Assembly (NCBI GenBank): GCA_902624585.1
Contig: CACNXU010000004.1
Span: forward strand, 1 to 49,297
Direction: 5' to 3'
Source: an uncultured Pelagibacteraceae bacterium
GTDB taxonomy: Bacteria; Pseudomonadota; Alphaproteobacteria; Pelagibacterales; Pelagibacteraceae
DNA length: 49,297 bases
Part shown: positions 34,339 to 39,357 of the stretch, in pieces
How the letters are laid out: each line of letters starts with the position of its first letter
Numbering within the stretch: the stretch's first letter is position 1
The notes under the pieces: generated by a model
Database searches by the model: none
What the model saw: only the letters and a program-made list of their open reading frames with translations
Told to the model about the DNA's origin: nothing
Made by a program: the position numbers and the translations under genes

Positions 34339-35248
34339 TTTGAGTAAATGCCTCTGCGAATTTTTCGGCCTCAAAAATTTGTAAATCATCTTCCTTTTCA
34401 CCTAATCCAAGTGCAATAATTGGTAGTTTATATTTTTTAGCAACAGCTAAAAGAATACCTCCTTTTGCTGTGCCATCTAATTTTGTCATAATAAGACCAG
34501 TTATTGGAATAATTTTATTAAATTCTTCAACTTGATTAATTACATTTTGACCAGAAGTTGCATCCAAAACTAAAATAACATCATGAGGAGCATCAGGATC
34601 AATTTTTTTAGTAACGTTTGCAATTTTTTTATATTCTTCCATTAAATTTTTTTTATTTTGTAGTCTTCCAGCTGTATCAATTAAAACTTGGTTAAAATTA
34701 TTGTTTAATGCTTCTTCAATAGCCTTGTAAGCGACAGATGCAGGATCAGAGCCTTGAGATGATTTTGTAATTTTAACATCAACTTTGTTTGCCCAATTTT
34801 CTAGTTGTTCTATAGCTGCTGCTCTAAAAGTATCAGATGCAGCTAGCATTACTTTGTTTCCATTAACTTTTAGTATTTTGCTTATTTTTCCAATAGTAGT
34901 TGTCTTCCCAACACCATTGACACCTGAAATTAATGTTGCATTTAATTTTTCTTTTTTTTTGAAGAATTCAATATTTTCCAAAGGTTTCATAATTGAAATA
35001 ATATAATTTTTTAAAATATTATTTATTTCGTCAGTTAAATCTTTATTGGGATCAATTTTTGTTTGAGAAATTATTTCTCTTATTTCTGAAGCCGAAACAA
35101 TACCAACATCTGATTGAATTAAGTAATCTTCGATTTTGTCTAATGTTTTGTCATCAATCTCTTTTTTTACAACTATATCTCTTAAACCTGTTGTAAAAGC
35201 TGAGGCACTTTTTTTAAAACCTGATTTAAATTTTTCGAAAATTCCCAT
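34331..35248 (-). CDS. ftsY: Signal recognition particle receptor FtsY
   Basis: GVNGVGKTTTIGKI, AASDTFRAAAIEQLE, DTAGRLQNKKNLMEE, TKLDGTAKGG. Confidence 0.96.
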   Translation of the reverse strand: MGIFEKFKSGFKKSASAFTTGLRDIVVKKEIDDKTLDKIEDYLIQSDVGIVSASEIREIISQTKIDPNKDLTDEINNILKNYIISIMKPLENIEFFKKKEKLNATLISGVNGVGKTTTIGKISKILKVNGNKVMLAASDTFRAAAIEQLENWANKVDVKITKSSQGSDPASVAYKAIEEALNNNFNQVLIDTAGRLQNKKNLMEEYKKIANVTKKIDPDAPHDVILVLDATSGQNVINQVEEFNKIIPITGLIMTKLDGTAKGGILLAVAKKYKLPIIALGLGEKEDDLQIFEAEKFAEAFTQIN

Positions 35249-36072
35249 TAAATATTAAAATTTATCTCCTTAATATCTGAAACTGGTCCTTTCATATGAA
35301 TACTATTGTTTTCATCAATTGAAATTGTCAATCTACCTGTAGAAAATTCAATATCAACTTTATCATTTACCAGTCCGTTTTGTTTTGCAGCAAAAGCTGT
35401 TGCGCAAGCTGCAGTTCCACAAGCTTTGGTAAGTCCAGCTCCTCTTTCCCATACTCTAACTTTTATCAATTCTTTGTTAACAACAGTTGCTAAAGTAACA
35501 TTACATTTTTCTGGAAATAGAGAGTGGGTTTCAATTGTTGGTCCAATTTTTTCAATTTCAAAATTTTCGTTATTATCAACAAAAAAAACAACATGTGGAT
35601 TTCCAACATTTACAGCAGTCCCGCCAGAAAATTCGTGATTATTTTTGTCGTTAATTTTAATTCCTAAATTATTCGTATTTAATTCTTTGGACAATGGAAT
35701 CTCATCCCATTTTGTTTTTGCAACACCTATTTCTGTAGAAACCATTTTTTCTCCAACAATATTTGATTTTAATTTGCCAGATAAAGTTGTTAAGACAATT
35801 TCTTTTTTGTTATTTTCTTTGCCTAATAAATCAGCAATACATCGTGTACCATTTCCACACGCACCAGACATTCCTCCATCTGAATTATAAAATTCTACTG
35901 AAGCATCTGAAATGTCATTTTTTTTAATCAATATTAGTTGGTCACAACCAATAAATTTTCTGTCACAAATCTTTACAATTTGCTCTTTTGTCAAATTTGT
36001 AATTGTTTGCCTATTATCTATGATGACAAAATCATTACCTAAACCGTCCATTTTAAAAGCTTTAATATTCAT
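35248..36072 (-). CDS. dapF: Diaminopimelate epimerase
   Basis: MDGLGNDFVIID, SGACGNGTRC, GNPHVVFF, ERGAGLTKACGTAACA. Confidence 0.96.
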   Translation of the reverse strand: MNIKAFKMDGLGNDFVIIDNRQTITNLTKEQIVKICDRKFIGCDQLILIKKNDISDASVEFYNSDGGMSGACGNGTRCIADLLGKENNKKEIVLTTLSGKLKSNIVGEKMVSTEIGVAKTKWDEIPLSKELNTNNLGIKINDKNNHEFSGGTAVNVGNPHVVFFVDNNENFEIEKIGPTIETHSLFPEKCNVTLATVVNKELIKVRVWERGAGLTKACGTAACATAFAAKQNGLVNDKVDIEFSTGRLTISIDENNSIHMKGPVSDIKEINFNI

Positions 36073-36130
36073 ATATAGATATTTAACTTATTTATTGACT
36101 TTTTGAACCTCTATTATAGGTTGTTGCCGT

Positions 36131-36230
36131 TTCCGCAAAAACATTAACTTTGCGGTGTCTTTGGAAACAAAGAGATCGACACTAGTCAGCGAGGGTTCGC
36201 CCACTAGTGCGTTACTGCTATGCGTAATAG
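36131..36230 (+). promoter_or_regulatory. Structured RNA leader upstream of ffh (multi-hairpin, probable cis-regulatory element)
   Basis: CCGCAAA/TTTGCGG (36133-36155); TCTTTG-GAAA-CAAAGA (36158-36173); CACTAGT..GGG-TTCG-CCC-ACTAGTG (36180-36209); GTTAC..GTAAT (36211-36228). Confidence 0.8.
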
Positions 36231-36232
36231 AT

Positions 36233-37591
36233 ATGTTTGAAAATTTAACAAATAAATTTGAAGAAATTTTTTCTTCTCTTAAAAAAGTACCTTCACTTGA
36301 TGAAGCTCAAGTAGATGAAGGTTTAAGAGGTATTAGGCAAGCCTTACTTGAAGCAGATGTCTCTTTGGATGTTGCAAAAGATTTTATTGAAAAAGTTAAG
36401 CCAAAAGCATTAGGCCAAGAGATAATAAGGTCTACCTCCCCTGGAGATATGGTTGTTAAAATTGTTTATGATCAGCTTGTAGACTTATTAGGTGCAACAA
36501 ATAATGAGATAAACTTAAACGCAGTACCGCCTGTGCCAATGATGTTAGTTGGGTTACAAGGTTCTGGAAAAACAACAACAACAGCAAAATTAGCAAAATT
36601 TTTAGAAAATAATAAAAAGAAAAAAGTAATGATGGTCAGTCTGGATATTTACAGACCAGCTGCACAAGAGCAACTTAGATCTTTAGGAGAACAAAATAAT
36701 ATTTTAACTTTACCTATTATAGAAGGTCAGCAACCTGCCGATATTTGTAGAAGAGCAATAAGTGCCGCTAATTTAAATGGAGCTGAAATAATTTTATTTG
36801 ATACTGCTGGTAGAACTCAAATCGATTTACAAATGATGAGTGAGATTAAGCAAATTGAAGCTGTCATTAATCCAACAGAAACTTTCTTAGTTGCAGACTC
36901 TTTAACAGGTCAAGTTGCAGCCTCGGTGGCAAAAGAATTTAAAAATACAGTTAATTTATCTGGTATTATTTTAACTAGGGCTGATGGTGACGCAAGAGGT
37001 GGAGCCGCAGTGAGTATGAAATATGTTTCAAACGTTCCAATTAAATTTTTAGGAATAGGGGAAAAAATAGATAATCTTGAAGTATTCCATCCAGATAGAA
37101 TTGCAAACAGAATACTTGGTATGGGGGATATCGTATCCCTTGTAGAAAAGGCGGCTCAAGATTTAGGTGAGGAGAATATTAAAAAAGCTGAAGAAAATTT
37201 AAAAAAGGGTCAATTTTCAATGGAAGATTATTTATCTCAATTAAGACAAATGAAAAAAATGGGTGGCATTGAGGGAATTATGTCTTTTATGCCAGGAGTT
37301 TCTAAAATTAAATCTCAAATGGATTCAGCAGGAATTGATGAGAGTATAATTACTAAAAATGAAGCTATTATTTTATCAATGACAAAAAAAGAAAGAGAGA
37401 ACCCAAAAATAATTGATGGTTCTAGAAAAAAAAGAATTGCTAATGGCTCTGGCACAGATCCGGCCACTATCAATAAATTGCTTAAGCAATTTAAAATGAT
37501 GTCTGAAATGATGAAAAAGATGTCAAAAGGAAATCTGAAAGGTATGTCTGATAAAGGTATACCGCCAGAGCTATTTAACCAATTAAAGTAA
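36233..37591 (+). CDS. ffh: Signal recognition particle protein Ffh
   Basis: [24 protein letters not shown], methionine-rich M domain ([16 protein letters not shown]); ATG at 36233 ([13 protein letters not shown]) preferred over GTG 36155. Confidence 0.96.
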
Positions 37592-37605: not shown

Positions 37606-38085
37606 ATGTTAAAATTAAGATTATCAAGAGGTGGAACAAAAAAACGTCCTGTTTATAAGGTTGTTGTTGCCGACAGTCGTTTTGCAAGAGATGGACGATT
37701 TATAGAAAAGGTTGGTTTCTTTAATCCACTATTACCTAAAGAAAAAAAAGAAAGAGTGGGCCTAGAAGCCGAGAGAATTAAATATTGGCTTGGTCAAGGA
37801 GCTCAGCCAACAACTAGAGTAGCAAGAATTTTAGGTGAGAACGAACTAATGCCTATGCCTGCAAATGGAAATAATCCAAATAAAGCAGTGCCAAAAAAAG
37901 AGAGAAATAAAAAAGAGGAGGATAATAAAGAAGCTCCTAAGGAAGAAGCTCCAAAAGCAGAAGCAGCTCCAGCAGCAGAGGCTCCTAAGGAAGAAGCTCC
38001 AAAAGCAGAAGCAGCTCCAGCAGCAGAAGCTCCTAAGGAAGAAGCTCCGAAAGCAGAGGCAGCTCCAGCAGAGGAAAAAAAATAA
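37606..38085 (+). CDS. rpsP: 30S ribosomal protein S16 with long low-complexity C-terminal tail
   Basis: [34 protein letters not shown] before ATG. Confidence 0.96.
37933..38076 (+). repeat. Three tandem 48-bp in-frame repeats in rpsP tail
   Basis: gctcctaaggaagaagctccaaaagcagaagcagctccagcagcaga[g/a] x2 plus a diverged third copy, encoding [16 protein letters not shown] units. Confidence 0.95.
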
Positions 38086-38099
38086 TTTAAAGTTTATTT

Positions 38100-38786
38100 A
38101 TGTGGCAAGCTCAAGTGTTTACACTTTATCCAGAAGTTTTTCCTGGTCCTTTATCTAAAGGGCTTTATGGAAAAGCTATATCAAATAATTTATGGAAACT
38201 AAAAGTTGTAAACATAAGAGATGCAGCTGATGACAAACATAAAACAGTAGATGATACACCTTATGGAGGTGGCTCTGGGATGTTGTTAAAAGCTGATGTT
38301 CTTGCAAAGTCCTTAGACGAAAATAAAAATGAGAATGAGAGAATCTTATACTTGTCACCAAAAGGAAAAAAGTTTGATCAAAATTTGGCAAAAGAGCTTG
38401 CTAATGAAAAATCATTGTCAATAATTTGTGGTCATTTTGAAGGTGTAGATGAGAGAATACTTTCAACAAGAAAGATTGAGGAGATTAGTATTGGAGATTA
38501 TATTTTATCAGGTGGAGAGTCGGCAGCGTATGTAGTGATAGATAGCATTTTAAGATTACTGCCAGGTGTATTAGGAAATGAAAAATCTAAACTAGATGAA
38601 ACCTTTGAAAATGGTCTTCTAGAGTACCCTCAATATACAAAACCTCAAATTTGGGAGGAAAAAGCCGTACCAGACGTACTATTATCAGGGGATCATAATA
38701 AAATTAAACACTGGCGTTTATCTCAATCTGAGGCTATAACACGCGACCGAAGACCAGATTTATGGGAAAAATATAAGAAAAACTAA
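38100..38786 (+). CDS. trmD: tRNA (guanine-N1)-methyltransferase TrmD
   Basis: [43 protein letters not shown]. Confidence 0.96.
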
Positions 38787-38802
38787 CTTGATACACATTA
38801 AC

Positions 38803-39357
38803 ATGAAAACAATTGAAGAAATAAATCAGCACAACGTTAAGAAAATACTTTCAGAGAAAAAAATTCCTGAATTTTATCCTGGAGATGTTGTTAAAGTTGG
38901 TGTGAGAATTACTGAGGGTAAAAAAGAAAGAATTCAATATTTTGAAGGGGTTTGTATTGCAAAAAAAAGTAGAGATTTAAATTCATCTTTTACTGTTAGA
39001 AAAATCTCTTTTGGGGAAGGTGTTGAGAGAACTTTTCCTTTATTTGGTACATTAATTGACTCGATCAAAGTTATCAGATCTGGTAAAGTAAGAAGAGCCA
39101 AACTTTATTATTTAAGGGACAGAACAGGTAAATCAGCAAGGATCGCTGAAAAAATTAGAAAAAAAATTGGTATTGATATTGATGTAAAACCAGAAACGGT
39201 TACTGAGGAAAATGTAGCTCCAGTAGCAGAAGCTCCAAAAGAACAATTAGCTCCAGCTGGAGAAGCTCCTAAGGCAGACGCAGCACCAGCAGTAGAGGCT
39301 ACTAAAGAAGAAGCTCCTAAAGTAGAAAAGTCAGAGGGTGCTTCAGAGAAAAAATAA
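38803..39357 (+). CDS. rplS: 50S ribosomal protein L19 with Ala/Pro/Glu/Lys-rich C-terminal tail
   Basis: [53 protein letters not shown] at 38803 preferred over TTG 38788. Confidence 0.95.

Follow-up and report, generated by a model that had tools for sequence, protein, structure and literature searches.

The window analysed here is a 49,297-nucleotide stretch of DNA from an uncultured bacterium of the Pelagibacteraceae (SAR11). A structured leader region at positions 36120-36232 lies between the divergent genes dapF and ffh, and the latter opens an operon that continues with genes for two ribosomal proteins and a gene located between them, trmD. Gene assignments build on the list of open reading frames, and the genes surrounding the leader are as follows.

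35248 to 36072, minus strand: dapF, the divergent neighbour, located next to the leader in the marine PS1 clade (see below) as well
36233 to 37591, plus strand: ffh, encoding the signal recognition particle (SRP) GTPase Ffh (TIGR00959), first gene of the operon
37606 to 38085, plus strand: rpsP, encoding ribosomal protein S16, second gene of the operon
38100 to 38786, plus strand: trmD, with a homologous trmD in the PS1 operon
38788 to 39357, plus strand: rplS, encoding ribosomal protein L19, with an approximate start and a homologous rplS in the PS1 operon

The gap between rpsP and trmD (within 37606-38786) measures just 14 nucleotides, and rimM, which is usual in this operon, is absent at this spot.

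A search with cmscan against Rfam, one of the checks that an initial sequence-only reading of this DNA had called for, returned RF01793 ("ffh") at 36165-36217, scoring 56.9 bits where the gathering score is 35 (E-value 2.8e-8). This is the one Rfam match across the whole window, with other families reaching chance level at most, and its alignment is full-length (52 of 52 positions). The bulged hairpin of the family is recognizable by its outermost pair, C36180-G36209, and by its bulge cytosines, which face each other at 36187 and 36202, and the element precedes ffh (ATG at 36233) in an alphaproteobacterium. The window element is a copy of this known family, the "ffh motif" that Meyer et al. 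2009 (PMC2704228) reported from Ca. Pelagibacter ubique and further alphaproteobacteria, located ahead of ffh and without an assigned function. Theirs is the study of Ca. Pelagibacter ubique intergenic regions to which the sequence-only reading had pointed, and that reading was right in both location and family when it placed a structured leader directly upstream of ffh.

The same reading had held that the element is not ffs, and this is confirmed. The sequence contains no SRP RNA core, and RF00169, the bacterial small SRP RNA family with its Ffh-binding core, has no match in the window region at E-values up to 5, so 4.5S RNA, whole or in part, was rejected as its identity. Nor did the rest of this genome, which is 58% complete, yield an SRP RNA match; an SRP RNA is present in other SAR11 genomes. 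The element itself being already known, what is new here is a corrected and extended fold, evidence against feedback by Ffh, and an inferred target of the leader.

The promoter and structural features of the leader region are listed below.

36095 to 36100, plus strand: TTGACT, -35 box of a putative promoter, whose TTGAC is conserved upstream of P3
36117 to 36122, plus strand: TAGGTT, candidate -10 box after a 16-nucleotide spacer
36133 to 36155, plus strand: hairpin P1, 7 base pairs and a 9-nucleotide loop, CCGCAAA-(9 nt)-TTTGCGG, by direct reading of the sequence
36153 to 36178, plus strand: hairpin P2, base CGGU/AUCG, G-G mismatch, UCUUUG/CAAAGA and GAAA loop, from minimum free energy (MFE) folding and covariation
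36180 to 36209, plus strand: hairpin P3, 7-base-pair stem, C-C (36187/36202), A-C (36188/36201), GCGA/UCGC and 4-nucleotide loop, from the Rfam match and covariation
36210 to 36222, plus strand: 3' tail, family consensus C-R-W-U-U-N4-U-U-K-G, partially matched in the window

The MFE of the leader is -32 kcal/mol (z = -2.27), a value equalled or bettered by 6 of 200 shuffled sequences. Compensatory changes across related genomes, whose absence the sequence-only reading had named as one possible refutation, reveal strong covariation in both P2 and P3. Of the four consecutive helices it proposed, the first, a perfect 7-base-pair stem with a 9-nucleotide loop, is present as described and corresponds to P1. 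Hairpins resembling P1 can be picked out by eye in relatives. The 3' strand of P1 overlaps the base of P2, such that both need positions 36153-36155 and are therefore mutually exclusive.

The second helix, described as a 6-base-pair stem capped by GAAA, is indeed read directly at 36158-36173 (TCTTTG-GAAA-CAAAGA), but the hairpin is longer than claimed, with CGGU/AUCG pairs continuing below a G-G mismatch. This P2 hairpin extends the published model, which covers the last hairpin only. The Rfam consensus leaves the 3' strand of P2, a conserved GGGAUCG, unpaired and lacks both the 5' strand and the tail, whereas this segment pairs with CGGUCCC in a covarying hairpin just upstream. Among 26 starting sequences, in which the P2 5' strand had been selected for pairing, seven of the eight pairs are altered on both sides. 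All eight are altered in this way in an alignment of 89 sequences that was fitted to the model and is thus biased towards P2, where 92% of cells are paired and no slid register comes close. An independent control applied the same choice of partner after swapping strands among sequences: a P2 stem forms with its own 3' strand in 52 of 80 sequences, compared with 18.3 +/- 3.4 after swapping (maximum 26 in 300 trials).

For the third helix, the 7-base-pair stem stands (CACTAGT/ACTAGTG, 36180-36186/36203-36209), but the proposed tip, GGG-UUCG-CCC above a 6-nucleotide bulge, does not. Covariation and MFE folding agree on GCGA/UCGC above the C-C and A-C mismatches, and relatives carry the tip variants GCGC/GCGC, ACGA/UCGU and GCAA/UUGC. 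Of 80 distinct sequences, 79 have C-C as the mismatch adjoining the outer stem, as do all 18 additional loci found with R1, a model that includes P2. The next position in the same 80 sequences is variable (A-C 46, C-G 11, A-A 8, G-U 5, U-A 4, G-C 2, A-U 1), and it is a standard pair, mostly C-G, in 30 of 89. It is therefore best regarded as a pair position that tolerates A-C, leaving C-C as the only true invariant mismatch; the Rfam model draws a 2x2 loop where this one pair covaries. Conservation continues into the tail, as UUGG or UUUG occurs within 20 nucleotides of P3 in 68 of 81 sequences (17.5 in shuffled controls). The fourth proposed helix, GTTAC/GTAAT just before the ATG, is found in two close relatives (L012 and L038) but is absent from four others (L001, L005, L010 and L019), and was dropped as a part of the element because it is not conserved.

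Of 80 non-redundant leaders, 79 carry a TTGAC box 46-115 nucleotides ahead of P3 (7.9 +/- 2.6 in shuffled sequences), and a TAG(T/G)TT box frequently follows 17 nucleotides further on. The full pattern TTGAC-N16..18-TAnnnT is present in 34 of the 80 (shuffled, 3.8 +/- 1.9). A simple sigma-70 scan did not list this promoter, although the TTGAC box is clear from the comparison. Transcription is predicted to start near 36129, just before P1, and the leader most likely begins at P1. No intrinsic terminator or attenuator was detected within 36000-36300, and no clear Shine-Dalgarno sequence precedes the ATG at 36233, as the sequence-only reading had remarked. The segment 36155-36232 is free of stop codons in the ffh frame, and a GTG-started ORF would add 26 residues to Ffh; this is probably due to chance.

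The leader is found in 50 of 61 relatives and in at least 106 of the 385 genomes chosen to represent the class, a lower bound given that the 14 best candidates were scored per genome. Among 59 further ffh-bearing genomes that lacked a match in the RF01793 class survey, R1 recovered the leader in 18, in each case directly before ffh, a gain that may stem partly from search settings rather than from the model. Searching whole genomes with RF01793 turned up a single match in each, leaving no strong mimic apparent. Wherever a downstream gene is identifiable it is ffh, except in one family, f51, where it is rpsP. Among 146 loci, P3 and the start codon are separated by 17 to 292 nucleotides, with a median of 36; the spacing in the window is 23. 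One locus with a gap of about 290 nucleotides between P3 and ffh (L023, genome G343) may contain a small inserted ORF. In another (L131, genome G328), GTGCAATAGTATGTAGGC after P3 recurs just before ffh, as if the leader region had been partly duplicated.

A pattern scan assigns family f51 to the marine PS1 / OCS116 clade, which includes AG-390-A19, AH-321-D15 and MED-G09 FRAM18_bin064. Ffh was detected in 76 of 80 motif-bearing genomes tested, and the four without it are exactly the four f51 genomes. We examined 18 PS1 genomes (G109, G234, G330, G407 and G445-G458), six of which are at least 90% complete. None of the 18 has a match above cut-off to the Ffh family or to the SRP54 GTPase domain characteristic of Ffh and FtsY, compared with 14 of 14 controls for the latter; the best PS1 signal for this domain is one weak partial match of 20.5 bits, short of the cut-off at 22.7. 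SRP RNA is likewise found in 0 of 18, versus 30 of 32 alphaproteobacteria from outside the clade. Fourteen of the 18 PS1 genomes, among them all six near-complete ones, have SecY, and the four tested for rpsP have that gene. These absences suggest that the marine PS1 lineage has lost the SRP pathway altogether. Our literature search found no paper covering both this clade and SRP.

The leader is retained in 14 of the 18 PS1 genomes. The gene order is dapF (where covered), leader, rpsP, trmD and rplS, and rpsP is preceded by a Shine-Dalgarno-like AAAGGA. Among 12 distinct PS1 leader sequences, 99.5% of pairs are kept, and two pairs in each of P2 and P3 show compensatory changes, indicating that the leader is still under selection as an RNA. 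PS1 being a single clade, the switch in gene context represents one evolutionary event. Elsewhere in the alphaproteobacteria, six near-complete genomes have no clear Ffh (G114, G190, G292, G346, G401 and G513), which might reflect assembly gaps or true loss, and others have weak Ffh matches only (G128, G248, G420 and G501 of family f70, plus G135 and G424). A search for the leader in such Ffh-poor genomes outside PS1, as further natural experiments, yielded no match.

These observations bear directly on what the leader might sense. The suggestion in the sequence-only reading that folding could gate translation of Ffh is not supported, given the wide range of spacings and the PS1 RNAs that precede rpsP in the absence of Ffh. 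A specific form of this idea, that free Ffh or SRP binds a leader imitating part of SRP RNA and thereby represses ffh, has some appeal because the leader precedes ffh in nearly all alphaproteobacteria that carry it. Moreover, P3 has a short 5'-GUCAG stretch in common with the 4.5S RNA strand that faces the Ffh site, and an A-C pair there. However, such mimicry by P3 was rejected because the A-C position is so often a standard pair, and Meyer et al. likewise noted no similarity (PMC2704228). The SRP RNA is linked to the leader functionally through Ffh, but is a separate gene in relatives. This mechanism requires Ffh in the cell, and a leader kept without Ffh, FtsY-type GTPases or SRP RNA cannot sense Ffh in PS1. 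This persistence speaks against autoregulation by Ffh as what the leader does in general, and we consider that explanation quite improbable.

If the leader were a constitutive structure with no regulatory ligand, shielding the 5' end of the mRNA or aiding ribosome loading, this would account for the position directly after the promoter, for GC-rich helices in AT-rich genomes, and for retention upstream of whichever gene is first. It is nevertheless unlikely, since the invariant C-C and the conserved tail appear too sequence-specific for mere stability. Control of the whole operon by some other factor, be it another RNA-binding protein, a small RNA, a metabolite or a strand switch between P1 and P2, draws on the mutual exclusion of P1 and the P2 base. 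That overlap is missing in some families and no ligand candidate presents itself, making this alternative improbable as well.

What is common to all loci is rpsP-trmD-rplS, which leads us to infer a ribosomal-operon leader. The proposal that the RNA is the leader of the ffh-rpsP-trmD-rplS mRNA and sets expression of this ribosomal-protein operon, probably in response to an operon-encoded protein with S16 as first candidate, has in our estimate about an even chance of being correct. Our confidence is moderate for operon control and lower for S16 itself as the ligand. On the more specific and tentative view that S16 or L19 binds the leader in autogenous control, the name "ffh motif" would be a misnomer. 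The E. coli rpsP-trmD operon has been reported not to be autogenously controlled, which counts against control of this kind. The leader does lie upstream of its candidate ligand gene within one operon, as expected for an S16 leader, with rpsP second in the window and first in PS1. We favour S16 because of this PS1 arrangement and because S16 is the predicted ligand of a leader before rpsP in Flavobacteria (PMC7247131), a different phylum, where the likeness is one of gene context and predicted ligand. According to a 2024 review (PMC10931766), it is not known how the trmD operon is regulated.

Under operon control by S16 or, as second choice, L19, transcription would start just before P1, and P2, the C-C hairpin P3 and the tail would together form a putative protein-binding site. 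Free protein in excess would bind the leader, and translation would be lowered. In SAR11 this could occur through blocked loading of the 30S subunit, because P3 ends 23 nucleotides before the ffh ATG, a distance within reach of an initiating 30S subunit. The range of spacings is a poor fit to one simple blocking mechanism and indicates that direct blocking is not the rule everywhere; in lineages with long spacers, the leader might act through transcription or mRNA decay instead.

RF01793 has been without an assigned function since 2009. The PS1 clade provides a natural experiment in which ffh has been deleted from between the leader and rpsP, and it points to the ribosomal operon and narrows the candidate ligands to a few. 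The abstract of PMC7844537 calls SRP conserved in all living organisms, which would make a bacterial lineage devoid of every SRP component notable.
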